Source of the DNA: Oceanibacterium hippocampi
Lineage (GTDB): Bacteria; Pseudomonadota; Alphaproteobacteria; Sneathiellales; Sneathiellaceae
NCBI RefSeq assembly: GCF_900172325.1
Contig: NZ_FWFR01000001.1
Location: 248,001-312,000, forward strand
DNA length: 64,000 nt
Reading direction: 5' to 3'
Shown here: positions 48,505-62,912 of the stretch, piece after piece
How positions within the stretch are numbered: the first letter of the stretch is position 1
How the letters are laid out: each line of letters opens with the position of its first letter
Position numbers and translations under genes: made by a program
The notes under the pieces: generated by a model
The model's input: only the letters and a program-made list of their open reading frames with translations
What the model was told of the DNA's origin: nothing
Databases searched by the model: none

Positions 48505-49005
48505 TCATTCGCCTGCCCGACCGCCATCCTGCTCCGCGAGCAGGCGATCGAGCTTTTCCGTTTCCTCGCCCGACAGCGGCGTCGGAGCCGCTGCCGCAGT
48601 ATACCGGACCCGCGCGCGGCGGAGGAAGATCCAGACACCGACAGCGCCTAGGATCAGGAGGATGAACGGTCCGATCCAGAGCAGGTAGGTGCCGAGCTTG
48701 AAGGGTGGGTTGAGCAGGACCCAATCGCCGTAGCGGGCGACCACATAATCGCGCACCTGCTCGTCGCTGTCGCCTGCCGCGATCCGTTCGCGGACCAGGA
48801 TGCGAAGGTCGCGGGCCAGTCCGGCGTTGGAATCGGCGATCGACTGGTTCTGGCAGACGAGGCAGCGCAGTTCGCGATGCAGTTCGTGCGCCCGCGCCTC
48901 GAGGGCCGGGTCGGCAAGCGGCTCGTCCGCGCCGAAACCCCAGGCGGTCGTGGCGATCCCAAGCACGACGAAAAGCGCGGCGAGAAAGGCGAACGGGCGT
49001 CTCAT
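48505..49005 (-). CDS. ccmH: cytochrome c maturation protein CcmH
   Basis: The 166-residue product is the thiol-oxidoreductase-like protein that keeps apocytochrome cysteines reduced. A signal/anchor segment (1-23), the redox LRCLVCQNQSI motif with Cys48 and Cys51, and a C-terminal membrane helix (about 108-130) give the standard alphaproteobacterial short CcmH. The ATG at 49005 overlaps the ccmG stop as ATGA. The longer frame extending into ccmG is out-of-phase sequence. Confidence 0.95.
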   Translation of the reverse strand: MRRPFAFLAALFVVLGIATTAWGFGADEPLADPALEARAHELHRELRCLVCQNQSIADSNAGLARDLRILVRERIAAGDSDEQVRDYVVARYGDWVLLNPPFKLGTYLLWIGPFILLILGAVGVWIFLRRARVRYTAAAAPTPLSGEETEKLDRLLAEQDGGRAGE

Positions 49006-49610
49006 TTCTGGTATTTCCGGACCCAGGGCATGATCTGCTGCTCCAGGGAGCGCGGCGTCAGCGGGCCGATCACCTTGTCCAGGATCTGTCCGTCGGGACT
49101 CACGACGAAGGTCTCGGGCACGCCGTAGACACCGAGATCGATGCCGGTTCGCCCGCTCTGGTCCATGCCGATCCGCGTGTAGGGATTGCCCATCCGGTCC
49201 AGCCAGTTCCGCGCCGCCTGCGGCGGATCCTTGTAGTCGAGACCGTGCAGGGTCACGGTACCCGACCGGGCGATCTGCATCAGCAGGTCGTGTTCCGCCC
49301 GGCAGGCGACGCACCATGAGGCAAATACGTTGACCAGGGTAATCTCGCCCTTGAGGTCGGCGCTCGCCAGTCCCAGCGGATGGCCCGGTACCGGCGGCAG
49401 GTCGAACTCCGGCATGGGCTTGTCGATCAGCGCCGAGGGGATCTCCTTCGGATCGAGATAGAACAGTCCGTAGCCCATCACGACCGTCAGCACGACGAAG
49501 ATCGCAACTGGCAGGAAATATCGGGCGCCACCGCGTCGCGCCGGAGCGGGGGCGGCATCGATCGCTGCCTCGCTTCCGGGCACGGTCGGTTCGTCGGGCG
49601 TCGACGTCAT
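49002..49610 (-). CDS. ccmG: thiol:disulfide interchange protein CcmG/DsbE
   Basis: The 202-residue membrane-anchored thioredoxin-fold protein supplies reductant for heme attachment. One helix (about 31-52) precedes the periplasmic domain. The active site is Cys100-Val-Ala-Cys103 within ASWCVACRAEH, and the GVPETF cis-proline loop lies near residue 158. Most CcmG proteins have Pro before the second cysteine (CVPC), so Ala here may shift the redox potential. The ATG at 49610 has GGAG seven bases upstream. Confidence 0.95.
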   Translation of the reverse strand: MTSTPDEPTVPGSEAAIDAAPAPARRGGARYFLPVAIFVVLTVVMGYGLFYLDPKEIPSALIDKPMPEFDLPPVPGHPLGLASADLKGEITLVNVFASWCVACRAEHDLLMQIARSGTVTLHGLDYKDPPQAARNWLDRMGNPYTRIGMDQSGRTGIDLGVYGVPETFVVSPDGQILDKVIGPLTPRSLEQQIMPWVRKYQK

Positions 49611-49620
49611 CACGATACTC

Positions 49621-51603
49621 CTATTCAGCCGGGACGGCGCCGGCAACCGCCTGCCGCTGGCGCGGTGCGCCGATCCGCAGACGACGGTCGCTGAGCGAGA
49701 CGAATCCGCCCAGCATCATCACCAGTGCACCGAACCAGATCCACGAGACGAGCGGCTTGTAATAGATCCGCGTGGCATAGCCACCCCTCCCGTCCGGCTC
49801 GCCGATCACGACGTAAAGGTCGGCGAATGCGGTCGGCCGGATCGCCGCTTCGGTCGTCTGCATCGGCGGGTTCGAGAAGGTCCGTGTTTCGGCCTTCATG
49901 CGGGCGACCAGCCTGCTGTCCTTGCGGACGATGAAATCGCCCTCGATCGTGTCGTAGTTCGGACCCCGTGCCGAACGCGCACCGTCGAAGGTGAAGCTGT
50001 AGCCACCCAGTTCGACGCTTTCGCCCGGCCGCATGACGGTCAGGCTCTCGCTCTGCCAGGTCTCCGAAGCGGTGATCCCGAGAATGATGAAGGCCATTCC
50101 CAGATGGGCGATGGTCATGCCGTAGGCGGCGCGCGGTTGTAGCCGGGCACGCCGCCAGCTGTCGCGGAACGGCACCCGGAACAGACGGAGCCGTTCCGCG
50201 AGTTCGACCAGCACGCCGACGGCGAGCCAGGCGAACAGCGCCATCCCGAGGAGCGCGAGGACCGGCCCGTCGGCAAGCAGCCACCAGGCGATCCCGGCGA
50301 TCACAGCCGCGGCGACGAGGGCCGCCTTGAGACGGGCGAGCGCCGCCCCGGCATCGGCCCGCTTCCAGGTCAGCAGCGGACCGACCGCCATCAACAGGAT
50401 CAGCGGCGTCATCAGCGGAATGAAGGTGGCGTTGAAATAGGGCGGGCCGACCGAGACCTTCTCGCCACTCAGGGCATCGAGAAAGAGCGGATAGAGGGTG
50501 CCGAGCAGCACCGTCGCCGCCGCCGTCGTGAGCAACAGGTTGTTCAGCACCAGGCCGCCCTCGCGGCTTATCGGCGCGAACAGCCCGCCGGCCTGCATGG
50601 TCGGCGCACGGAAGGCATAGAGGGCCAGCGCCCCGCCGGTCACCAGGAACAGGAAGATCAGCACGAAGATGCCGCGCGAGGGATCGGTGGCGAAGGCATG
50701 GACCGAGTTCAGCACCCCCGACCGCACCAGGAAGGTGCCGAGCAGGCTGAACGAGAAGGCGATGATCGCGAGCAGGATGGTCCAGCTCTTCAAGGCATCG
50801 CGCTTTTCCACCACGATCGCGGAATGGAGCAGCGCGGTGGCGACCAGCCACGGCATGAAGGAGGCGTTCTCGACCGGATCCCAGAACCACCAGCCGCCCC
50901 AGCCGAGTTCGTAATAGGCCCACCAGGAGCCAAGCGCGATTCCGCCGGTGAGAAAGCACCAGGCGACCAGCGTCCAGGGCCGCACCCAGCGCGCCCAGGC
51001 CGGGTCGATGCGGCCCTCGATCAGCGCCGCGATGGCGAACGAGAACGAGACCGACAGCCCGACATAGCCGAGGTAAAGGAAAGGCGGATGGAACGCGAGG
51101 CCGGGATCCTGAAGCAACGGATTGAGGCCCTGGCCGTCGAGCGGCGGCGGGTCGAGGCGGCCGAACGGGTTCGACGTGAACAGGATGAAAAGCAGGAAGC
51201 CGACGCCGATCAGGCCCTGGATCGCCAGGACCCGCGCCCTGAGATCCGGCGGCAGGTTGCGGCCGAACAGCGCCACCATCGCACCGAACAGCGCCAGGAT
51301 CAGGATCCAGAGCAGCAGCGAGCCCTCGTGATTGCCCCAGACGCCGGAGATCTTGTAGAGCAGCGGCTTGGCGCTGTGCGAATTCTCGGCGACGTTGACG
51401 ATCGAGAAGTCGCTCGTCAGGTATCCCACGGTGAGACAAGAGAAGGCGATCGCGACGAACACGAACTGCGCGCCGGCGGCCGGCGCGGCCAGCGCGACCC
51501 AGGGCTGATGGCCGCGTTGCGCGCCGATCAGCGGCAGGATCCCCTGCACGAGGGCGATGACAAGCGCGAGCACGAGCGCGAAATGTCCTGTTTCGGCGAT
51601 CAT
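49621..51603 (-). CDS. ccmF: heme lyase subunit CcmF
   Basis: The 660-residue polytopic membrane protein transfers heme from CcmE to apocytochrome c. It has some 14-15 membrane helices, the tryptophan-rich GWGGWWFWDPVENASFMPWL motif (WWD domain), flanking conserved His residues and a large periplasmic loop near the C-terminus. The ATG at 51603 (MIAETGHFAL) forms an ATGA overlap with the ccmE stop. It precedes ccmG by 10 bases. Confidence 0.97.
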   Translation of the reverse strand: MIAETGHFALVLALVIALVQGILPLIGAQRGHQPWVALAAPAAGAQFVFVAIAFSCLTVGYLTSDFSIVNVAENSHSAKPLLYKISGVWGNHEGSLLLWILILALFGAMVALFGRNLPPDLRARVLAIQGLIGVGFLLFILFTSNPFGRLDPPPLDGQGLNPLLQDPGLAFHPPFLYLGYVGLSVSFSFAIAALIEGRIDPAWARWVRPWTLVAWCFLTGGIALGSWWAYYELGWGGWWFWDPVENASFMPWLVATALLHSAIVVEKRDALKSWTILLAIIAFSFSLLGTFLVRSGVLNSVHAFATDPSRGIFVLIFLFLVTGGALALYAFRAPTMQAGGLFAPISREGGLVLNNLLLTTAAATVLLGTLYPLFLDALSGEKVSVGPPYFNATFIPLMTPLILLMAVGPLLTWKRADAGAALARLKAALVAAAVIAGIAWWLLADGPVLALLGMALFAWLAVGVLVELAERLRLFRVPFRDSWRRARLQPRAAYGMTIAHLGMAFIILGITASETWQSESLTVMRPGESVELGGYSFTFDGARSARGPNYDTIEGDFIVRKDSRLVARMKAETRTFSNPPMQTTEAAIRPTAFADLYVVIGEPDGRGGYATRIYYKPLVSWIWFGALVMMLGGFVSLSDRRLRIGAPRQRQAVAGAVPAE

Positions 51604-52037
51604 TGCGTCCCTCCCTGCCATTGCCCGGTCTTCTTCAATGCCTCGGCGACCTCCGGCGGCATGTAATTCTCGTCATGCTTCGCCAGCACGTTCGAGGCGA
51701 CGAAGACACCGGCACCGTCGAGCTTTCCTTCCGCCACCACGCCCTGCCCTTCGCGGAACAGGTCGGGCAGCATGCCGGTGTAGGTGACCGGCACCGATTC
51801 GGCGAGATCGGTGACGCGGAAGGTCGTGACCACGCCGTCCCGCACGACGCTGCCTTCCTCGACCAGGCCGCCGAGACGGAAACGCCGGTCCTCATCGACG
51901 CCCTTCTCTTGCAGATCCGAGGGGCTGTAGAAGAAGACGAGATTGTCCTCGAACGTGGTCAGCACGATTCCGGCGGCGACGAACAGCGCCGCGACACTGC
52001 CGATCACCAGGTAGAGACGCTTACGCTTGCGAGTCAC
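51600..52037 (-). CDS. ccmE: heme chaperone CcmE
   Basis: The 145-residue periplasmic chaperone binds heme covalently through His121 in LAKHDENYMP, with Tyr125 as ligand. One N-terminal anchor helix (8-27) precedes an OB-fold. I choose the GTG at 52037 because GGAGG lies six bases upstream and the protein then begins MTRKRKRLYL as in relatives. An ATG eight codons earlier is also in frame but lacks a site. The start lies 17 bases inside the end of ccmD. Confidence 0.95.
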   Translation of the reverse strand: MTRKRKRLYLVIGSVAALFVAAGIVLTTFEDNLVFFYSPSDLQEKGVDEDRRFRLGGLVEEGSVVRDGVVTTFRVTDLAESVPVTYTGMLPDLFREGQGVVAEGKLDGAGVFVASNVLAKHDENYMPPEVAEALKKTGQWQGGTQ

Positions 52038-52233
52038 GTGCTTCCTCCGTGCCACCGCCACTCCGGCGACGCCGTCGCGGACCGTGATCCGCCTCGAGTT
52101 GTTCGAGCAATCGCTCGTCGCGCCGAAGGCGCGCCCTGCTTTGCAGCAGCAGCGTCACGAGCACCGCCGCCGTGATCGCGAAAGCCGGCCAGACATATGC
52201 CGCATAGCCGCCCATATGGAAGAATTCCGCCAT
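52021..52233 (-). CDS. ccmD: heme exporter accessory protein CcmD
   Basis: The 70-residue protein has one membrane helix (about 8-27, YAAYVWPAFAITAAVLVTLLL) and a charged cytoplasmic tail. It stabilises the CcmABC-heme-CcmE complex. The MGGYAAYVWPAFAIT start is the family signature. The tail is longer and more Arg-rich than usual. It lies 126 bases after ccmC, the only sizeable gap in the first half of the operon, and overlaps ccmE. Confidence 0.92.
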   Translation of the reverse strand: MAEFFHMGGYAAYVWPAFAITAAVLVTLLLQSRARLRRDERLLEQLEADHGPRRRRRSGGGTEEARDSQA

Positions 52234-52359
52234 TTTCTCCCCGGTTCGGGCCGGATCGCCCGTCACTCGTCCGGCAGCCCGCCACTCTAGAGGCAGCCGC
52301 CATGACCGGTCCATAACAACTCGCCCGACCTCACGGCAGGTTGACCACGGTCACTCCCC

Positions 52360-53088
52360 TCAGTCGCGCGCCACCGCGAGACGCAGACGCCGCACCTTCA
52401 TGCCGATGATCTCGGATCGGACCCGCATCATCAGCACGGTCAGGAAATAACCCTTGAAGGCGAGCGCCATGACCAGCAACGGAATCAGGATCGAACTGTG
52501 GATCTTCGGCCCCGACATCGTCGCGACGCTGGCCGGCTGGTGCAGCGTGTTCCACCAATCGACCGAGAACTTGATGATCGGCAGGTTCACCGATCCGACC
52601 AGCGCCAGGATTGCCGCCGCTCGGGCCGCCCGGGTCGGATCGTCATAAGCCTCCCAGATTGCCATGTAGCCGAGATAGAGGAAGAACAGGATCAGCATGC
52701 TGGTGAGCCGCGCGTCCCAGACCCACCAAGTGCCCCACATCGGCTCGCCCCACAGCGATCCGGTGGCCAGCGCGATGAAGGTGAAGCAGGCCCCGATCGG
52801 GGCGCACGACTTGGCCGTCAGGTCGGCGACCGGGTGGCGCCAGATCAGCGACATCGCCGAACAGACCGCCATCACCGCGTAGACGAACAGCGCCATCCAG
52901 GCTGCGGGCACATGGACGAACATGATGCGAACCGTATCACCCTGCTGGTAGTCGGGTGGTGCGACGAAAAGTCCCAGATAGAGCCCGACCACGGTGAGCA
53001 GCGCCGTCACGCCCGCGACCCACGGGAACAGCAGTTCCACGATCCGCAAGAATCGCGTCGGATTGGCGAAACGATGCATGACCGACAT
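52360..53088 (-). CDS. ccmC: heme exporter protein CcmC
   Basis: The 242-residue, six-helix membrane protein presents heme to CcmE. The WWD motif is WGTWWVWDARLTSMLIL, and the flanking conserved His residues are in FVHVPAAWM and TLHQP. It begins MHRFANPTRFLRI three residues after the ATG used, so a start at that Met is equally plausible. It lies 34 bases after ccmB. Confidence 0.96.
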   Translation of the reverse strand: MSVMHRFANPTRFLRIVELLFPWVAGVTALLTVVGLYLGLFVAPPDYQQGDTVRIMFVHVPAAWMALFVYAVMAVCSAMSLIWRHPVADLTAKSCAPIGACFTFIALATGSLWGEPMWGTWWVWDARLTSMLILFFLYLGYMAIWEAYDDPTRAARAAAILALVGSVNLPIIKFSVDWWNTLHQPASVATMSGPKIHSSILIPLLVMALAFKGYFLTVLMMRVRSEIIGMKVRRLRLAVARD

Positions 53089-53122
53089 TCGTCCTGGCTC
53101 CCTGTCCGTGAGTCCGATCCGA

Positions 53123-53788
53123 CTATTCCAGCGCCAGCCGGAGCGCCGCCGCAGACGCCCAGGGCGTCAGCACCGTGGCGCCGATCAACAGGCCGCCCAA
53201 TACCGCCAGATGCGGCGCGACGACGAAGCCGCCGATCGCCGCCTCGACCGCCGCCACCCCGAATATCAGGATAGGTATATAGAGTGGTAGGACCAGCAGC
53301 GAAAGAAGAACGCCGCCACGGCGCACGCCGACGGTCAACGCGGCGCCGATCGCGCCGATCAGCGACAGCGCCGGTGTACCGAGCAGCATCGCCGCGATCA
53401 GCGCGACAAAACCGTTCACCGGCAGGTTCAGCAGCACTGCCAGCAGCGGCGCGGTCACCAGCAGCGGCAATCCGGTGGTCAGCCAGTGGGCGAGAGCCTT
53501 GGCCAGCACCACCAGTTCGAGCGGCGTTGGACCGAGCGCGATCAACTCGAGCGAGCCATCCTCGTAGTCGGCCTGGAAGATCCGGTCGAGCGATATCAGG
53601 CTGGCCAGCATGGCCGCCACCCAGATCACGCCGGCCGCGATCCGGGACAGCAGCTCGAGTTCGGGACCGACGCCGAGCGGGAAGAGCGTCACGGTGATGA
53701 CGAAAAATCCCAGCGTCATGCCCACGGTGCCGCCCTGGCGGATGGCGAGCCTGAGATCCCGGACGAGGAGAGCGAGCAGCGCTCTCAT
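53123..53788 (-). CDS. ccmB: heme exporter protein CcmB
   Basis: The 221-residue permease of the CcmAB ABC transporter has six predicted helices and the motifs RDLRLAIRQGG, QADYEDGSLELIALGPTPLELVVLAK and LPLYIPILIFG. It helps release heme-loaded CcmE rather than simply exporting heme. The ATG overlaps the ccmA stop as ATGA. The longer frame is ccmA out of phase. Confidence 0.96.
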   Translation of the reverse strand: MRALLALLVRDLRLAIRQGGTVGMTLGFFVITVTLFPLGVGPELELLSRIAAGVIWVAAMLASLISLDRIFQADYEDGSLELIALGPTPLELVVLAKALAHWLTTGLPLLVTAPLLAVLLNLPVNGFVALIAAMLLGTPALSLIGAIGAALTVGVRRGGVLLSLLVLPLYIPILIFGVAAVEAAIGGFVVAPHLAVLGGLLIGATVLTPWASAAALRLALE

Positions 53789-54414
53789 ACGGCCAGCCGG
53801 TAGGGTTCGAGGGCAAGCCGCCGCGCCCCGGCAAGACCGAGATCCAGATGGGTGGCGATCATTGCCATGCCGCCATGCGCGGCATGATCGCGAACGACCT
53901 CGGCGAGCATGGCAGAGGCCACGGTGTCCAGCGACGTCGTCGGCTCGTCGAGCAGCCAGAGCCGCGCCGGCGTCGCCAGCAGCCGGGCCAGGTTGACCCG
54001 GCGACGCTGCCCGGCCGACAGGAAGCGCGCCGGAACGGTCGCCAGATCGCGCAGATCCATTCGTTCGAGCGCCTTGTCGACGCCGCCGGCGCTGACCCGG
54101 ACTCCATTGACCCGGGCCCAGAAGCGCAGATTCTCGGCCACCGTGAGAACCGGCTTCAGGGCGTCCTGGTGGCCGACATACTGGAGCCGGCCGTGATGCT
54201 CGTCCCAGTCTTCGTCGGCCGGCCGGCCGTCCCACAGGAGACGCCCGCCGGCGGCCTTGAGCAGGCCGCTGCAGATCCTGAGCAGGCTCGACTTGCCGGC
54301 GCCGTTCCGGCCCTCCAGCAGCAGGATCTCGCCGTCGCCGACGCGAAAATCGAGGCCAGCGAAGACCGGCCGCTCACCGCGGACACAGACGAGTTCCTCG
54401 CCCTCGAAAATCAT
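53785..54414 (-). CDS. ccmA: heme exporter ATP-binding protein CcmA
   Basis: The 209-residue ABC ATPase powers release of holo-CcmE from CcmC. The Walker A EGRNGAGKSS is at 34-43, the signature is LSAGQRRRVNLARLL, and the Walker B is WLLDEPTTSLD. It is first in the ccm operon. The 115 bases between it and the PaaK-like gene hold a GC hairpin and an ACCGACCGGT palindromic core but no clear promoter. Confidence 0.97.
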   Translation of the reverse strand: MIFEGEELVCVRGERPVFAGLDFRVGDGEILLLEGRNGAGKSSLLRICSGLLKAAGGRLLWDGRPADEDWDEHHGRLQYVGHQDALKPVLTVAENLRFWARVNGVRVSAGGVDKALERMDLRDLATVPARFLSAGQRRRVNLARLLATPARLWLLDEPTTSLDTVASAMLAEVVRDHAAHGGMAMIATHLDLGLAGARRLALEPYRLAV

Positions 54415-54529: not shown

Positions 54530-55777
54530 CTACTCGTAGGTGCGGACGTCGTCAATCACCTTGCCATCGTTGGGCAGGGTGCCGGGGGCAACGAACTCGA
54601 CACCGCCGCGCAGCTTGCACGACGCCTGCAGGGTCTCCGTGACGGCCGCGCGGAGCGCGTCACCGCCGTCGCCCGCAACCTCGCAACGCAGTGTCATCCG
54701 GTCGACATTGTCGACGCTGTCGACGACCAGACGGACGCGAACGAGCGCCTCGTGACGCTTCCGCACCTGCTCGACCTGGCCCGGGTGGACGAACATCCCC
54801 TTGACCTTCGTGGTCTGGTCGGCGCGACCCATCCAGCCCTTGATCCGCCGGTTCGTGCGTCCGCAGGGGCTGGTTCCGCCAAGTACCGCCGACATGTCGC
54901 CGGTGGCGAAGCGGATCAGCGGGTAGACCGGGTTGAAGGTCGTGACCACGATTTCCCCGACCTCGCCGTCCTCGACCGGATCGCCGGTACCCGGGCGGAC
55001 GATCTCGAGAACGATTCCCTCATCGACGACCATCCCTTCGAGGGCCGGTGTCTCGTAGGCGATCAGGCCGAGATCGGCGGTCCCGTAGCTTTGGATCGGG
55101 CCGACGCCGAGCGCCTTCAACTCGGCGCGCAGGCTGGGCGGCAGCGCCTCGCCACCGACCGAGGCCGCGCGAAGGCACGAAAGATCGATGCCGGTGTCGC
55201 GGCCCTTTTCCAGCAGGATCTTGAGGAACGAGGGCGTCCCGACATAAGCGGCGGGCCGAAGTTCGGCCATCGCCTGGAGCTGCATCTCGGTATTGCCGGT
55301 ACCGGCCGGGAAGACCGTGCAGCCGATCGCCGCGGCGCCTGCCTCCATCATCATGCCGGCAGGCGTCATGTGATAGGAGAAGGTGTTGTGAACGAGGTCG
55401 CCGGCGCGGCAGCCCGCTGCGTAAAGCGCCCGGCCCATGCGCCAGAAATCGCCGGTCCGCGCACCCGGCTCGTAAATCGGGCCGGGCGACATGAAGATCT
55501 GCTCGATCTGCGAGAGCGGCGCGCCGTTCAGCCCGCCGAGAGGACGGGCCGCGGCCTGGTGCGCCTTGAGATCGGACTTCCGCGTCACCGGCAGGCGGGC
55601 GAGCGCCGCGCGGCTGATCACCTCGGCCGGCGCGACATCCTTCAACAGGTCGGCGAAGTAGGCCGAGTTCGCCTTCGCATGGCCGATCGCCGCGGCAAGC
55701 GCCGCCATCTGCTCGGCCTCGCGCTGTTCCGGATCGCGGATCTCTAGCTCGTCGAAATAGGCGCCTGCGCCAGTCAC
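54530..55777 (-). CDS. PaaK-like adenylate-forming protein with an altered P-loop
   Basis: The 415-residue product has the overall plan of phenylacetate-CoA ligase. The N-terminal LPVTRKSDLKAHQ segment, a YVGTPSFLKILLEK region, QSYGTADLGLIAYE (A5-like), IRFATGDMSAVL (A7) and the hinge GRADQTTKVKGMFVHP all appear in order. Where PaaK has the Ser/Thr/Gly-rich ATP loop, this protein reads SPGPIYEPG (97-105). Related proteins with that sequence occur beside Liv transporters elsewhere, from memory. It may activate an unusual acid or have lost ligase activity. It is last in the fadD-like/liv operon, 45 bases after livF. Confidence 0.82.
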   Translation of the reverse strand: MTGAGAYFDELEIRDPEQREAEQMAALAAAIGHAKANSAYFADLLKDVAPAEVISRAALARLPVTRKSDLKAHQAAARPLGGLNGAPLSQIEQIFMSPGPIYEPGARTGDFWRMGRALYAAGCRAGDLVHNTFSYHMTPAGMMMEAGAAAIGCTVFPAGTGNTEMQLQAMAELRPAAYVGTPSFLKILLEKGRDTGIDLSCLRAASVGGEALPPSLRAELKALGVGPIQSYGTADLGLIAYETPALEGMVVDEGIVLEIVRPGTGDPVEDGEVGEIVVTTFNPVYPLIRFATGDMSAVLGGTSPCGRTNRRIKGWMGRADQTTKVKGMFVHPGQVEQVRKRHEALVRVRLVVDSVDNVDRMTLRCEVAGDGGDALRAAVTETLQASCKLRGGVEFVAPGTLPNDGKVIDDVRTYE

Positions 55778-55822: not shown

Positions 55823-56647
55823 TCAGCCAAGCCAGCGCTTGCGCCGGCGATAGGAACGCACGTCGCGGAAATTCTTGCGGCCCTTGTCCGACATGCCGAG
55901 GTAGAATTCCTTGACGTCCTCGTTCTGCCGCAGGCTCTCGGCGCTACCGTCCATCACGACGCGGCCATTCTCGAGAATATAGCCATAGTCGGCATAGCGC
56001 AGGGCCACGTTGGTGTTCTGCTCGGCCAGGAGGATCGAGACACCCTCGTCGACGTTGATCTTCTTGACGATCTCGAAGATCTGCTCGACGAGCTGCGGCG
56101 CCAGCCCCATCGAAGGCTCGTCCAGCAGGATCAGCCGGGGCCGGCTCATCAGCGCCCGCCCGATCGCCGTCATCTGCTGTTCGCCGCCCGAGGTATAGCC
56201 GGCCTGGCTGGTGCGCCGTTCCTTGAGGCGCGGAAAATAGGAATAGACCATCTCGAGATCGCGGGCGATCGCCTTGGCCCCGTCGCGCCGCGTGTAGGCA
56301 CCCGTCAGCAGGTTCTCCTCGACCGTGAGATGCTCGAAGCAATGGCGCCCCTCCATCACCTGGATGACGCCGCGCTGAACCAGGTCGTTCGGCGTTTCCT
56401 CTGCCAGGATTTCGCCATGGAAGGCGATCGTCCCCTTGGTCACCTCGCCCCGTTCGGCCCGGAGCAGGTGCGAGATCGCCTTGAGGGTGGTTGTCTTGCC
56501 GGCCCCGTTGGCGCCGAGAAGGGCGACCACGCCCCCCTCGGGCACCTCCAGGGAGACCCCCTTGAGCACCAGTATGACGTGGTTGTAGACCACCTCGATA
56601 TTGCTGACCGCGACGATTGCGGCCGGTTGTTCGCTGCCCAAGGTCAT
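55823..56647 (-). CDS. livF: branched-chain-type ABC transporter ATP-binding protein LivF
   Basis: The product is the LivF-type ATPase. The Walker A GANGAGKTT is at 45-53, TSGGEQQMTAIGRAL is the signature, and LILLDEPSMGL is the Walker B. The C-terminus extends about 30 residues beyond E. coli LivF with a basic KNFRDVRSYRRRKRWLG tail. I use the ATG at 56647, where homology begins, although its AAGGAG site is only one base away. An in-frame ATG at 56707 overlapping livK is an alternative. Its substrate depends on the binding protein. Confidence 0.92.
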   Translation of the reverse strand: MTLGSEQPAAIVAVSNIEVVYNHVILVLKGVSLEVPEGGVVALLGANGAGKTTTLKAISHLLRAERGEVTKGTIAFHGEILAEETPNDLVQRGVIQVMEGRHCFEHLTVEENLLTGAYTRRDGAKAIARDLEMVYSYFPRLKERRTSQAGYTSGGEQQMTAIGRALMSRPRLILLDEPSMGLAPQLVEQIFEIVKKINVDEGVSILLAEQNTNVALRYADYGYILENGRVVMDGSAESLRQNEDVKEFYLGMSDKGRKNFRDVRSYRRRKRWLG

Positions 56648-56693
56648 ACTCCTTGCGGGCGACGCCACGACGGGCGCCGCCCGTACGACGGTC

Positions 56694-57986
56694 CTACTTG
56701 CATTCACGCGGGGTGATGTTGTTCTCCTTGGCGTAAGCCATGGAATCCTCGACGATCAGCTCGTCGACGACCTCGCGGTCGGCGCCGATGAAATCGCTGA
56801 CGATCTTCCAGGACTTGGCCTTGGCGTCCCACTGCTGGATCAGGCCGAGGCCCGGTCCGCCATGGTTGGCACATGTGACTTTGACCGGAACGGTGAAGCC
56901 CGGCAGGCCCAGTTCATTGAGGCGCGCCTCGTCGACATTCAGCGCCTCGTAGCCGTCCCGCATCATCGGCGGCGTCAGATCCTTGGTGCCGTGGATCTTC
57001 ATCGCCGTGCGCGCCGCCTCCGCCGCCCACATGGCGGCGGCCATGCCGCGGTTGTAGAGCACCGTGCCGGCGTTGGAGCCGTCGCCCGCAGCCTTGCCGG
57101 CGTCATAGACATACTTCTGCAGGTCGGAATAGATCGGGAAGTCGTTGCCGACGCTGTGGAAGTTGATCGACTTGTAACCGTCGGCGACATCGCCTGCGGG
57201 AAGTACGTCGGTCTCCGCGCCCGACCACCAGCCGCCGATGAAGTGATCCATCGGGTAGCGGATGGACGCGGCCTCCTTGATGGCGACCTGGTTCATGACG
57301 CCCCAGCCCCACATGATGACATAGTCGGGCTTCTCGCGACGGACCTGCAACCAGGTTGCCTTCTGTTCCTGACCGGGATGGTCGACCGGCAGCAGCATCA
57401 GCGAGTAGCCGTGCTTTTCGGCCAGCTTCTCCAGTGTCCGGATCGGCTCCTTGCCGTAGGCGGAATTGTGATAGACGAGGGCGACCTTCTTGCCCTTCAG
57501 GCTCCCGCCTTCCTGCTCCATTGCGTACTTGATGATGATCGAGGCCGCATCCCAGTAGGTGCCCGGGAAGTTGAAGACATTCGGGAACACCGTGCCGTTG
57601 GCGGCGGAGGTCCGGCCGTAGCCCATGGAGTGGATCGGGATGCCGTCAGCCGTCGCCTTGGGGATCAGCTGGTAGGTGATGCCGGTCGAGAGCGGCTGGT
57701 AGGCCAGCGAGCCTTCGCCCTTCGTGCTCTCGTAGCATTCCACGCCCTGCTGCGTGTTGTAAGCGGTCTCGCACTCGATGTTTTTGACTTTCACGCCTTC
57801 GATGCCGCCATCCCGCTCGTTGAGCAGGGTCCAGTAATCGGCATAGCCGTCGGCGAAGGGGATACCGTTCGGCGCGTATGGGCCGGTCCGGTAGCTCAGT
57901 GATGGCATCGTCAGGTCCGCCAGGGCGGGAACCGCCCCGAGCGCGACCGTAGCTGCCAGCGCCGCTACGAATACCTTCATCTTCAT
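56694..57986 (-). CDS. livK: periplasmic substrate-binding protein of a Liv-type ABC transporter
   Basis: The 430-residue product has a Sec signal peptide (MKMKVFVAALAATVALGAVPALA) and a two-lobed periplasmic-binding fold of the Peripla_BP_6 type. LSYRTGPYAPNGIPFADGYADYWTLLNERDGGIEGVK shows the family's start, and the lobe-2 segment around DYVIMWGWGVMNQVAIKEA follows. It is about 60 residues longer than E. coli LivK and probably binds a hydrophobic or aromatic acid, not necessarily an amino acid. The ATG at 57986 has GGAG seven bases upstream. It lies between livM and livF. Confidence 0.9.
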   Translation of the reverse strand: MKMKVFVAALAATVALGAVPALADLTMPSLSYRTGPYAPNGIPFADGYADYWTLLNERDGGIEGVKVKNIECETAYNTQQGVECYESTKGEGSLAYQPLSTGITYQLIPKATADGIPIHSMGYGRTSAANGTVFPNVFNFPGTYWDAASIIIKYAMEQEGGSLKGKKVALVYHNSAYGKEPIRTLEKLAEKHGYSLMLLPVDHPGQEQKATWLQVRREKPDYVIMWGWGVMNQVAIKEAASIRYPMDHFIGGWWSGAETDVLPAGDVADGYKSINFHSVGNDFPIYSDLQKYVYDAGKAAGDGSNAGTVLYNRGMAAAMWAAEAARTAMKIHGTKDLTPPMMRDGYEALNVDEARLNELGLPGFTVPVKVTCANHGGPGLGLIQQWDAKAKSWKIVSDFIGADREVVDELIVEDSMAYAKENNITPRECK

Positions 57987-58052
57987 GCGTCTTCTCCCTT
58001 TTTGCTTCAATTTGCGCCGTTGGAACGGCGTTCTGCTACAGGGCCCGGCCCT

Positions 58053-59129
58053 TCAATGCGGGAACGGCCAGAGCCGCATCTTTTCCTTGGCAATCGACCA
58101 GAGCCGGGCGAGGCCATGCGGCTCGACGATCAGGAAAAAGATGATCAGGCTGCCGACGAGGGTGATCTCCACATGCTTCGCCAACACCGGCAGGACATCG
58201 AACCCGCCAACCATGATGTTCTTCAGGACGATCGGCAGCAACACCATGAAGGCGGCGCCGAGGAACGAACCCAGCATCGAGCCGAGCCCGCCGATGATCA
58301 CCATGAAGAGGACCAGGAACGACTGGTTGATGCCGAAGGCCTCGGTCGGCTCCGCGGCGCCGAACCAGACCGTGAAATAGAGCGCGCCGGCGATCCCGAT
58401 ATAGAAGGAGGAAACCGCGAATGCCGACAGCTTGGTCCGCATCGGCGGCACGCCGATGATCTCGGCGGCGATATCCATGTCGCGGATCGACATCCAGCTT
58501 CGCCCGATACGGCCGCGGATCAGATTCTTCGCGACGAGAGCGAGCACGGTGACGAAGGCCAGGCAGAACAGGTAGGTCGCGGCGGGCGTCGCCTCAGGCC
58601 CGGTCACGGCAAAGCCGAAGATCGACCGTTCCGGCGCGGTGATCTGCCCGGTTGCCGAATAATTGTAGAACCACGGCACCTTGTTGAAGAGCCAGACCAG
58701 GAAGAACTGTGCGGCGAGCGTCGCAACCGCAAGGTAGAAGCCCTTGATGCGCAGGCTCGGCAAGCCGAAGAACATGCCCACCGCGGCGGTGACGCCGCCG
58801 GACAGCAGGATGACGATGACGATGTTGAGCTCTGGGAAGGCCGTCATCAGCTTGTAGGAGGCATAGGCGCCAACCGCCATGAAACCGCCCGTGCCGAGGC
58901 TGAGCAGGCCGCAATAGCCGGTCAGGATGTTGAGCCCGATCGCCGCCAGCGAGAAGACCAGGAAGGGCAGCACGATCGACTTTTCCCAGTAGTCGTCGAT
59001 GATGAACGGGATGACCAGGAAGGCGACGGCGAGCATGCCCCAGAACAGCCAGCGGTCCTGGATGATCGGGAAGGTCTGCTGATCGTCACGGTAGGAAACT
59101 TTGAAATCGCCGGTTTCACGATACAACAT
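58053..59129 (-). CDS. livM: Liv-type ABC transporter permease LivM
   Basis: The 358-residue permease has about ten membrane helices. The family motif GLNILTGYCGLLSLGTGGFMAVGAYASY lies near residues 64-91, and the cytoplasmic EAA-like loop IRDMDIAAEIIGVPPMRTKLSAF contacts the ATPases. About 25 polar residues precede the first helix. It follows livH by 12 bases. Confidence 0.95.
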   Translation of the reverse strand: MLYRETGDFKVSYRDDQQTFPIIQDRWLFWGMLAVAFLVIPFIIDDYWEKSIVLPFLVFSLAAIGLNILTGYCGLLSLGTGGFMAVGAYASYKLMTAFPELNIVIVILLSGGVTAAVGMFFGLPSLRIKGFYLAVATLAAQFFLVWLFNKVPWFYNYSATGQITAPERSIFGFAVTGPEATPAATYLFCLAFVTVLALVAKNLIRGRIGRSWMSIRDMDIAAEIIGVPPMRTKLSAFAVSSFYIGIAGALYFTVWFGAAEPTEAFGINQSFLVLFMVIIGGLGSMLGSFLGAAFMVLLPIVLKNIMVGGFDVLPVLAKHVEITLVGSLIIFFLIVEPHGLARLWSIAKEKMRLWPFPH

Positions 59130-59141
59130 TGTCGTCGCCCC

Positions 59142-60092
59142 CTACACGCGCTCGATGATGCGCTCGCCGAACAGGCCTTGCGGGCGGACCAGCAGGAAGG
59201 CCAGGGCAAGCACGTAGGCGAACCAGTTCTCGATCGCGCCGCCGATGTACGGACCGGCGTAGAGTTCTGCCAGCTTCTCGCCGACGCCGATGATCAGGCC
59301 GCCGAGGATGGCGCCCGGTATCGAGGTGAAGCCGCCGAGAATGAGCACTGGGAGCGCCTTCAGCGCGATCAGCGAAAGCGAGAACTGGACCCCCGACTTG
59401 GCGCCCCACATGGTGCCGGCGACCAGCGCGACGAAGCCGGCGATCGACCAGACGATGATCCAGATGGTGCGCAGCGAGATGCCGACCGAGAGCGCGGCCT
59501 GGTGGTCGTCGGCGACGGCGCGGAGCGCGCGGCCGATCCGGGTATACTGGGAGAACAGCGAGAGGGCGATGACCAGCACGGTGGCGACAACGGCCGCGGC
59601 GATCTCCAGCTTGTCGACATAGATGTCGAAGCGGTCGAACATCCAGTCGAGCGCCCCTTCCGGCAGTCCGACCGAGAGCGGCTTCACGTCGGAGCCCCAC
59701 ATCAGGTCGCCCATGCCCTCGAGGACATAGGCAAGGCCGATCGTCGCCATGAACAGGATGATCGGTTCCTGGTTGACGAGATAGCGCAGCACGAAGCGTT
59801 CGATCACGAAGGCGAGCCCGATCATCACCAGGATCGTGATGGGCACGGCGATCCAGATCGGGACGACGGGCATCCAGTCGTTGGGCAGCCCGAGGGTGTG
59901 CAGGAGTTCGGAGAAAGGCGTGTTGCCGAGCATCAGGCTGGCAAGCGTCAGTGCCGCGAACAGGCAGAGCACGCCCTGCGCGAAGTTGAAGATCTGCGAT
60001 GCCTTGAAGATCAGCACGAAGCCGAGCGCCACGAGCGAATACATCACGCCCGCGAGCAGGCCGGAGAGGATCGTTTCGATGAGGTACGACAC
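59142..60092 (-). CDS. livH: Liv-type ABC transporter permease LivH
   Basis: The 316-residue permease begins ETILSGLLAGVMYSLVALGFVLIFKASQIFNFAQG, the LivH signature, and has about eight membrane helices. The loop RAVADDHQAALSVGISLRTIW is the ATPase-contact motif. It lies 11 bases after livG. Confidence 0.96.
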   Translation of the reverse strand: MSYLIETILSGLLAGVMYSLVALGFVLIFKASQIFNFAQGVLCLFAALTLASLMLGNTPFSELLHTLGLPNDWMPVVPIWIAVPITILVMIGLAFVIERFVLRYLVNQEPIILFMATIGLAYVLEGMGDLMWGSDVKPLSVGLPEGALDWMFDRFDIYVDKLEIAAAVVATVLVIALSLFSQYTRIGRALRAVADDHQAALSVGISLRTIWIIVWSIAGFVALVAGTMWGAKSGVQFSLSLIALKALPVLILGGFTSIPGAILGGLIIGVGEKLAELYAGPYIGGAIENWFAYVLALAFLLVRPQGLFGERIIERV

Positions 60093-60103: not shown

Positions 60104-60925
60104 CTACTCGTGCGCCACGCCGAGATAGGCGTCGATGACGGTCTGGTCGTTGCGCACGACATCCGGCGTACCGTCGCCGATCTTGCGCCCGTAATCGAGA
60201 ACCACCACCCGGTCCGAAATGTCCATGACGACGCCCATGTCATGTTCGATCAGGGCGATCGTCGCGCCGAACTCGTCGTTCACGTCGAGGATGAAGCGGC
60301 ACATGTCCTCCTTCTCCTCGATATTCATCCCGGCCATCGGCTCGTCGAGCAGCAGCAGCTTTGGCTCGGCGGCGAGCGCCCGGCCAAGCTCGACCCGCTT
60401 CTGCAGGCCATACGGCAGCCGCCCGACCGGGGTCTTGCGGATGTGCTGGATCTCCAGGAAGTCGATGATCCGCTCCACCACCTCGCGATGCTCGACCTCC
60501 TCGCGTTCCGCCGGGCCGCGCCAGATCGCCTGCCAGAACATGTTGCGATGCATCTTCGTGAGCCGCCCGGTCATGATGTTGTCGAGCGTGGTCATGCCGC
60601 GGAAGAGCGCGATGTTCTGGAAGGTCCTGGCGATGCCGTGCCGGGCGATCTCGTGCGGCTTCATGGCCTTGCGCTTCTCGCCGCGGAACCAGATCTCGCC
60701 TTCCTGCGGATGATAGAAGCCGTTGATCACGTTCAGCATCGACGACTTGCCCGCACCGTTCGGCCCGATGATGGCGCGGACTTCGCCTTCGAGGATATCG
60801 AAGGAAATGTCCTCGATCGCGGTCACCCCGCCGAAGCGAAGGGTGATGTTGCGGACCTCCATGAGAACGTCACGCTGCGGCACGGTCTCCGGTTCCATCG
60901 TCACTTTCGCGGGTTGCGCGCTCAT
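60104..60925 (-). CDS. livG: Liv-type ABC transporter ATP-binding protein LivG
   Basis: The 273-residue ATPase has the Walker A GPNGAGKSS at 54-62, a signature region GLQKRVELGRAL (LPYGLQKRVE in place of the usual LSGGQ), and the Walker B LLLLDEPMAGMN. The signature variant is common in LivG proteins of transporters paired with acyl-CoA ligases. It starts 4 bases after the acyl-CoA synthetase gene. Confidence 0.94.
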   Translation of the reverse strand: MSAQPAKVTMEPETVPQRDVLMEVRNITLRFGGVTAIEDISFDILEGEVRAIIGPNGAGKSSMLNVINGFYHPQEGEIWFRGEKRKAMKPHEIARHGIARTFQNIALFRGMTTLDNIMTGRLTKMHRNMFWQAIWRGPAEREEVEHREVVERIIDFLEIQHIRKTPVGRLPYGLQKRVELGRALAAEPKLLLLDEPMAGMNIEEKEDMCRFILDVNDEFGATIALIEHDMGVVMDISDRVVVLDYGRKIGDGTPDVVRNDQTVIDAYLGVAHE

Positions 60926-60929
60926 GCCG

Positions 60930-62912
60930 TCACGACGCCATGCGGAGCGGCTCGGCCGCCGATTGCGGCGGGAAGGTCTCGGCCTCCTCGATACGCAGAT
61001 CCGCGTTCATCATCGTCTCCCGACCATCCTCGTAGGTGATGCGGACCTCGATCGCCGCATGATCCGCGTCCGAATAGAGCCCCTCGATGAGGCTGCCGTA
61101 ACGTTCCGCGATGACCCGGCGGCGAACCTTGCGGGTCCGCGTGAGCTCGCCGTCATCGGCATCGAGTTCCTTGTGAAGCAGCAGGAAACGATGGATCTGC
61201 GAGCCGGCCAGTTCGCTGTCGATGGCGAGGCCCCTGTTCACTTCCTCGATGTTCGACCGGATCAGCGCGTAGATTTCCGGCTTCGCCGCGAGCTCGGCAT
61301 AGCTGGCGTAGTTGAGATCGTTCCGCTCCGCCCAGTTACCGACCGCTTCCATGTCGATGTTGATGAACGCGGTGACCATGTCGCGGCCCGAGCCGTGACA
61401 GACTGCCTCGCGGATGAACGGGTAGAACTTGAGCTTGTTCTCGAGATATTGCGGCGCGAACAACGTGCCGTCGTTGAGCTTGCCGACGTCCTTGGCGCGG
61501 TCGATGACCTTGAGATGGCCCTCGTCGGTCATGATCCCCGCGTCGCCGGTATGCAGCCAGCCGTCCGCGCCGAGCGTCTCCGCCGTCGCTTCGTCGTTCT
61601 TGAAGTAACCGGCGAACAGGCCGGGGCTCTTGACCAGAACCTCGCCGCTCGCCTCGTCGATGCGGACCTCGCACCCCGGCGCCGCCGGGCCGACCGTGTC
61701 CGGGCGAACGTCGCCGTCCTTCTGGATGCAGACATAGGCGGCGGATTCGGTCTGGCCGTAGAGCTGCTTCAGGTTGATGCCGAGCGAGCGATAGAAGCGG
61801 AAGGTCTCCGGCCCCATCGGCGCGCCGGCGGTATAGGCGACGCGGATCCGCGAAAAGCCGAGCGTGTTCTTCAGCGGGCCGTAGATCAGCAGCTTGCCCA
61901 GACCGTAGTTCAGGCGATCGAACAGGCCGACCGGCAGGCCCTCGAGAAGCGGCGTGCCGACTTTCTTCGCGACGTCCATATAGTAGTGGAACAGCCGCCG
62001 CTTGATGGCGCTCGCATCCTCGATGCGGATCATCATGTGGGTCAGGATATTCTCGAAGATCGACGGCGGCGCGAAGAAGTAGGTCGGCCCGATCTCCTTC
62101 AGGTCGGTCATCACCGTGTCGGCGCTTTCCGGGCAATTCACCGTGTAGCCGGCGGTGTAGGCCTGGACGAAGGAGAACAGGTGATCGCCGACCCAGGCCA
62201 TGGGCAGATAGGAGAGGATGTCCTCACGCTCGGTCAGGCCCTCGAAACCGACCGAGGCGCGGCCGACCTCGATCAGGCTGCCGCATTTCAGCACCACGCC
62301 CTTCGGACGACCGGTCGTGCCGGAGGTATAGGCGATCACCGCGATGTCGTCGCCGCTGCCCTTCGCGACCTCGCCCGGGTAAAAGTCCGGATGCGCCTTG
62401 TCATGGGCCCGGCCGCGTTCCTGCAGGTCGCGGAACTTGTGAAGGAATTCCTGTTCGTAATGACGCATGCCGCGGTCGTCCTCGTAGACGATCTGGCGGA
62501 GCGACGGCACGGACTCGCGGACATCGAGCAGCTTGTCGGTCTGCTCCTGGTCCTCGACGATGGCGCAAACGACCTCGGCATGATCGAGAACGAAGCGGAC
62601 TTCCTCGGCGATGCCGTCCTGATAGATCGGCACCGGCACAGCGCCGATCGCCTGGATTGCCGTGAATGACCAGTAGAGATGCGGCCGGTTGCTGCCGACG
62701 ATCGCCACCTTGTCACCACGCCTGATGCCGATGTCTGCAAGTCCGCACGCCAGATTGCGGACATTGTCCGCCACTTCGGCCCAGGTCCAGCATTGCCAGA
62801 TGCCGAATTCCTTCTCACGGTACGCGGGCCGGGATCCGAACGTCCCGGCGTTATGCAACAACAGCTTGGCGAAGGTGTCTTGGCGACGCAGGGAGTCCTG
62901 AACGTTGCTCAT
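60930..62912 (-). CDS. long-chain-type acyl-CoA synthetase
   Basis: The 660-residue AMP-forming enzyme activates a carboxylic acid to its CoA thioester. The P-loop YTSGTTGRPKG is at 195-205, YGQTESAAYVCIQ is the A5 motif, WLHTGDAGIMTDEGHLKVIDRAKD is A7-A8, and a C-terminal domain follows. Its length matches long-chain acyl-CoA synthetases, but linkage to a Liv-type importer suggests an imported aromatic or branched acid. I start at the ATG at 62912 (MSNVQDSLRR). The AAGGAA site is about 12 bases away, so a start upstream is possible. It heads the operon. Confidence 0.9.
   Translation of the reverse strand: MSNVQDSLRRQDTFAKLLLHNAGTFGSRPAYREKEFGIWQCWTWAEVADNVRNLACGLADIGIRRGDKVAIVGSNRPHLYWSFTAIQAIGAVPVPIYQDGIAEEVRFVLDHAEVVCAIVEDQEQTDKLLDVRESVPSLRQIVYEDDRGMRHYEQEFLHKFRDLQERGRAHDKAHPDFYPGEVAKGSGDDIAVIAYTSGTTGRPKGVVLKCGSLIEVGRASVGFEGLTEREDILSYLPMAWVGDHLFSFVQAYTAGYTVNCPESADTVMTDLKEIGPTYFFAPPSIFENILTHMMIRIEDASAIKRRLFHYYMDVAKKVGTPLLEGLPVGLFDRLNYGLGKLLIYGPLKNTLGFSRIRVAYTAGAPMGPETFRFYRSLGINLKQLYGQTESAAYVCIQKDGDVRPDTVGPAAPGCEVRIDEASGEVLVKSPGLFAGYFKNDEATAETLGADGWLHTGDAGIMTDEGHLKVIDRAKDVGKLNDGTLFAPQYLENKLKFYPFIREAVCHGSGRDMVTAFINIDMEAVGNWAERNDLNYASYAELAAKPEIYALIRSNIEEVNRGLAIDSELAGSQIHRFLLLHKELDADDGELTRTRKVRRRVIAERYGSLIEGLYSDADHAAIEVRITYEDGRETMMNADLRIEEAETFPPQSAAEPLRMAS

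Follow-up and report, generated by a model that had tools for sequence, protein, structure and literature searches.

What does a PaaK-like protein of the ANL superfamily do once the loop that normally orders the phosphates of ATP has been replaced, and what is it doing in one operon with an ordinary ligase? The window analysed here, a whole stretch of 64 000 nucleotides from Oceanibacterium hippocampi, raises this question with a minus-strand gene (54530..55777, GTG start at 55777) for a protein of 415 residues in which the place of the A3 phosphate loop is taken by SPGPIYEPG. An earlier note, which gave no strand, had put this segment at residues 97-105, and the minus-strand open reading frame confirms it (55463..55489, with the codons running from 55489 down to 55463). 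We call the protein and its relatives SPGP proteins.

Family assignment

The Pfam AMP-binding model (PF00501) scores the SPGP protein at 52.1 bits, above its cut-off of 29.9, which places it in the ANL superfamily; the AMP-binding_C_2 model falls slightly below the Pfam cut-off. The two PaaK equivalog models give 140.4 bits (TIGR02155) and 157.4 bits (NF041878) against cut-offs of 646.3 and 700, so that the protein lies outside both. By sequence the closest solved structures are BT_0428, PaaK2 and PaaK1. We rejected a housekeeping phenylacetate ligase as the identity of the SPGP protein, since the same genome already has an ordinary PaaK-like paralogue (L082) with the loop SSGTTGQAT. Judged from its sequence, the protein is a member of a widespread, uncharacterised PaaK-like ANL branch of single origin. 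A literature search for published work on this operon or on PaaK proteins with a degenerate P-loop returned nothing on the SPGP family, and as far as could be searched this large subfamily is undescribed.

Conservation and spread of the loop

Scanning one genome per species, we collected the 80 best loci, at 57-68% identity. Because these were chosen by overall similarity and by peptide patterns outside the loop, they are a fair test of its conservation, a check that the earlier note had proposed. Ser97, Pro98 and Gly99 are identical in 81/81 sequences (the 80 homologues and the window protein), and Pro100 in 80 of them; residue 101 is I, L or M, residue 102 is Y, F or H, and residue 103 is always acidic, E or D. 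SPG is thus invariant, far beyond what chance would give, and the SPGP loop is family-wide, with the signature SPGP[IL][YF][ED]P, which rules out a sequencing error or a local mutation as its origin. A larger set of 159 signature rows, which includes repeats and three rows in which residue 100 is A or S, was selected by SPG and so gives no test of SPG itself; residue 103 is D or E in all but one of these. Across the homologues each of Ser97, Pro98, Gly99 and Pro100 is encoded by all four synonymous codons, and since the codons vary silently it is the residues that selection maintains.

Whole-genome searches gave strong matches in 20 of the 200 genomes sampled across the phylum Pseudomonadota and in 51 of the 190 sampled across the window's class. 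A match was counted as strong above about 400 bits; other PaaK-like proteins score under about 225 bits and are clearly separated.

What the loop lost and kept

PaaK1 binds the ATP phosphates through backbone amides of its P-loop together with Ser94, Thr96 and Thr97 (PMC8388817). In sequence register these three residues correspond to Pro98, Pro100 and Ile101 of the SPGP protein, a register that was counted by hand and assumes a constant five-residue tag offset in the 2Y27 chain. The 22 canonical relatives show S at the first of these columns and T/S at the other two. The two prolines leave the loop with two backbone NHs fewer, and the loop segment falls short of that of the canonical relatives by about five residues. 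The A3 consensus (S/T)(S/T/G)G(S/T)TGxPK is not matched by SPGPIYEPG, which retains no more of it than Ser, Gly and Pro. An AlphaFold model of the SPGP protein (pLDDT 92.6) predicts strands at 93-97 and 101-105 linked by a three-residue turn; in the model of the canonical paralogue L082 (pLDDT 87.8) the strands, at 93-97 and 105-109, are linked by seven residues. The register and the predicted tight turn together support the earlier claim that the protein lacks the loop which normally orders the phosphates.

In 4-chlorobenzoate ligase the loop positions most sensitive to mutation are Thr161, Gly163 and Pro168. Ser97 aligns with the first and Gly99 with the second, both kept in SPGP proteins, and Pro104, aligned with the third, is usually kept. 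Because Ser97 and Gly99 stand at sensitive positions, part of the loop function may survive.

Other ANL motifs

The earlier note held that A5, A7 and the hinge remain. That stands for A7 (TGD, T292 G293 D294, 54896..54904, minus strand), which fits (S/T)GD, and for the A8 hinge (GRADQTTKVKG, residues 317-327, 54797..54829, minus strand), which fits Rx(D/K)x6G as R318-x-D320-x6-G327; both vary little or not at all across the main group of SPGP proteins. It needs amending for A5 (YGTAD, residues 231-235, 55073..55087, minus strand), which fits the consensus aromatic-(G/W)-x-(A/T)-E at every position save the last, where Glu is replaced by Asp. Among 65 non-redundant members the motif is Y[G/A]TAD, with Asp in 55 and Glu in 10, and the same replacement occurs in 3/22 relatives with a normal A3, for example L083. 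A second lesion in A5, Ser/Thr to Ala, was considered and dropped, as the published aryl-CoA-ligase consensus permits A or T there. Main-group members show almost no variation, or none, at TGD, GRADQ, K324, H136, D404 and D410.

The A10 region, on which the earlier note is silent, is altered as well: in NDGK (residues 403-406, 54560..54571, minus strand) the spacing is that of PNDGK, Px2GK as against Px4GK. Which residue stands for the catalytic lysine depends on the alignment. Both phmmer and hhalign (profile alignment) put K406 on it; MAFFT, and a count backwards from the last strand (residues 408-410 here and 430-432 in L082), put Asp404 there. On the first alignment the A10 lysine has shifted and has been lost more than once; on the second its place has gone to Asp404. 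K406 is present in 54/65 non-redundant main-group members, is absent in 17/159 signature rows, and changes state seven times on the tree. A10 lysine mutants of other enzymes lose adenylation while the second half-reaction is little affected (PMC11255334).

One family (f13: L097, L101, L105 and L106) couples the replacement of K406 by I or L with that of N403 by K or R (PKDG[IL]V, PRDGLV), as if the positive charge had shifted three residues upstream.

As read from the alignments, the features concerned with adenylation (A3, A10) appear altered or drifting, and those of the AMP/ribose site (A5, A7) and of the hinge (A8) appear frozen in the main group. It is this pattern that leads us to the explanation preferred below.

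Phylogeny and a divergent sister group

A tree of 68 non-redundant SPGP and 22 canonical rows was built with the loop and A10 columns taken out. In a first tree a single row on a very long branch (L202) upset monophyly; in a second, which left out L202 and six other unstable rows, a single branch splits the SPGP rows from the canonical PaaK rows with SH-aLRT support of 98. On this sequence tree the sampled SPGP proteins are one clade apart from canonical PaaK.

Three divergent members (L107, L124 and L125) form a sister group that keeps SPGP[IV]FEP, YHLVP, TADLG and TGD but has GRVG for GRAD, E for G327 and no A10 lysine. An operon of the same kind as that of the window is present at L107.

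The long-branched L202 (G480:C58:56000-58200) lies in a frame of 1368 codons; it is a PaaK-like domain that has diverged very far and has KQILASVSGARIAVG at the loop position. It shares its contig with an SPGP gene and is possibly a fused, degenerate relative of the SPGP proteins.

Operon and gene neighbourhood

The SPGP gene is the last of seven minus-strand genes separated by short gaps, in the order FadD, LivG, LivH, LivM, LivK, LivF, SPGP. The first encodes a FadD-like acyl-CoA ligase with canonical A3, A5, A7 and A10 (60930..62912, start inferred); it is the neighbouring ligase of the earlier note and lies five transporter genes from the SPGP gene. Between them are genes for a LivG-like ABC transporter ATPase (60104..60925), LivH-like (59142..60092) and LivM-like (58053..59129) permeases, a LivK-like substrate-binding protein (56694..58010, named from its place in the operon and from annotated homologues) and a LivF-like ABC transporter ATPase (55823..56707); the start codons of the last two are not fixed. 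Among the 59 loci that could be tested, with at least 7.9 kb present upstream of the SPGP gene, 54 have FadD, LivG, LivH, LivM and LivF on the same strand, three have part of the set and two have none. The A3 of the operon FadD starts with TSGTT in every variant listed, and its A5, A7 and A10 are canonical (59 sequences).

Some SPGP copies have no adjacent FadD (L010, L012). Copies of this kind would be weak proof of independence from the operon, since L012 has a LivG-FadD-LivHMKF set on its own contig, about 26 kb upstream. The copies L012, L124 and L125, all without adjacent FadD, lie in beta-oxidation-like clusters, and in the catabolic clusters of L012 and L125 SPGP is the only ANL-type gene seen.

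Downstream genes vary among loci. In 18 of them, for example L025, L041, L050 and L058, a CaiB/BaiF-like CoA-transferase gene lies directly downstream of SPGP or close by (named by sequence likeness; downstream genes were called with a codon-usage score). The divergent copies L124 and L125, carried by Roseobacter plasmids, have CaiB/BaiF genes nearby too. In the window a cytochrome c maturation (ccm) gene set, also named by sequence likeness, lies directly downstream (49002-54414, minus strand), and genes of this set follow SPGP in 13 other loci, including near relatives of the window. In L003, a Sneathiella MAG, the liv-FadD genes are gone and SPGP still stands ahead of ccmA.

On an Azospirillum brasilense plasmid (L117) and a Peteryoungia plasmid (L120) the operon is followed by genes for isovaleryl-CoA dehydrogenase, acyl-CoA carboxylase and HMG-CoA lyase, which hints at leucine/isovalerate and so at branched-chain acids as substrate. 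On a Roseovarius plasmid (L121:844-3894), the operon is closely preceded by genes for a B12 (cobalamin-dependent) acyl-CoA mutase and by meaB, and the skeleton rearrangement of a branched acid, such as pivalyl/isovaleryl-CoA, is conceivable there. The neighbours of SPGP point to carboxylic-acid catabolism, possibly of branched-chain acids, and fix no one substrate.

Comparison with known systems

Foldseek and VIA-align matched the SPGP model over its whole length to PaaK1/2, BT_0428 and 2-hydroxyisobutyryl-CoA ligase (HCL), tied at Z 35-36. The whole-chain rmsd to these folds is 10-13 Å, which suggests that the small domain of the model is placed differently from that of the matched structures.

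PaaK1/PaaK2 (PDB 2Y27, 2Y4N, 2Y4O) and BT_0428 (4R1L) resemble the SPGP protein over the full fold at about 28% identity and share with it the A7 Asp, the A8 Arg/Asp/Gly, and TPS and GGTExQ-like segments; they differ in having an SSGTTGKP loop, an A5 Glu and an A10 GKAxR where the SPGP protein has its SPGP turn, Asp and NDGK. HCL (PDB 6HDX, 6HE0, 6HE2) is a PaaK-type two-domain ligase that matches the whole length (Z about 36) at about 24% identity. It has been crystallised with its acyl-AMP and CoA and is a working ligase, and its loop, by sequence alignment, is of the GTSGTTGRP type (as in the HCL-like relative L140), unlike that of SPGP.

The operon FadD, FadD11-like by its best NCBIfam match, shares superfamily and operon with SPGP but belongs to a separate ANL branch and has canonical motifs. 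A precedent for an atypical ANL protein is EhpF. This protein of phenazine antibiotic biosynthesis (PDB 3HGU, 3HGV, 3L2K) matches the N-terminal domain of SPGP with Z about 20; it differs in its phenazine context, in an identity of 16%, and in that the large domain alone aligns.

Function of the SPGP proteins

Our preferred explanation, held at somewhat less than an even chance, is that the SPGP subfamily is impaired in ATP-dependent adenylation and handles AMP, acyl-adenylate or acyl-CoA beside the real ligase of the operon. In this branch the apparatus of the first half-reaction, which consumes ATP, would be lost or changed; the AMP/ribose site would be kept, as would, among main-group members, the hinge used in the second half-reaction. 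In the operon that the SPGP gene closes, and which would serve acid uptake and activation, the LivKHMGF transporter would import a carboxylic acid and the canonical FadD would activate it with ATP; the SPGP protein would bind AMP, acyl-adenylate and/or acyl-CoA and may act as a thioester-side enzyme, in acyl-AMP/CoA exchange or acyl transfer.

We read adenylation as reduced because Pro, Pro and Ile replace the phosphate-binding Ser/Thr of PaaK1 in an invariant loop, because this loop is about five residues shorter, with a modelled turn of three residues as against seven, and because the A10 lysine drifts or is replaced by Asp404, and mutants of this lysine elsewhere lose adenylation but little of the second half-reaction (PMC11255334). 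The second half-reaction is favoured because A7 and A8 are invariant in the main group, and a partnership with a ligase because the operon pairs SPGP with a FadD of canonical motifs. We infer from these features the weak or absent adenylation, the ligand and the cooperation with FadD. Counted against the preferred explanation are the retention of Ser97, Gly99 and usually Pro104, the presence of K406 in most main-group members, and the copies without an adjacent FadD.

The retained features could instead belong to an active ATP-dependent acyl- or aryl-CoA ligase of PaaK type, only a little less probable than the preferred explanation, that uses an unusual proline turn as its phosphate loop and holds ATP at the Ser97/Gly99 region and Mg2+ at Asp235 and perhaps Glu103, with Lys406 as the A10 lysine. 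Such an enzyme would account for the intact A7 and A8, for an A5 change that is conservative and found in relatives with a normal A3 (L083), for NDGK in most members with K406 on the A10 lysine by hhalign, and for the clusters of L012 and L125, with SPGP as their only ANL-type gene. It fits poorly with a loop that lost all three phosphate-binding side chains, two backbone NHs and five residues, with the several lineages that have no A10 lysine, with a sister group that lost the A8 Asp and Gly too and yet retains SPGP, and with an operon that already has a canonical FadD.

It is unlikely that the SPGP protein is a pseudo-ligase with no catalytic activity, a scaffold or regulator that responds to nucleotides or acyl-CoA and adjusts uptake by binding FadD or the LivF/LivG ATPases: the fixed operon order, with LivF adjoining SPGP and FadD in the same operon, and a sister group that keeps SPGP and the AMP-site motifs without A8 and A10 speak for it, but TGD, GRADQ, K324, H136, D404 and D410 are conserved in the main group beyond the needs of a pure scaffold, and L010 and L012 have no adjacent FadD, though L012 has its distant FadD-liv set.

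Returning to impaired adenylation as the preferred explanation, we regard the earlier reading, that the protein has lost normal ATP handling, as plausible; that it acts only on acyl-adenylate or acyl-CoA, or that it regulates the ligase of the operon, are each possible; the evidence speaks neither for a different phosphate donor mode nor against it. The chance is nearly even that the whole clade gave up ATP-dependent adenylation and became an enzyme or sensor that binds nucleotides or acyl-CoA and is partnered by a canonical ligase in an acid-uptake operon.

Current genome annotations label SPGP genes as "AMP-binding protein" or "phenylacetate--CoA ligase family protein", and if ATP-dependent adenylation is impaired many such labels in Pseudomonadota would be misleading. 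If the preferred explanation is true, the loop signature would mark a defined 'second-half-only' or regulatory ANL family, and the operon would offer a naturally occurring pair of ANL proteins, one intact and one loop-less, and a clean system for asking what the ANL fold does without its P-loop.
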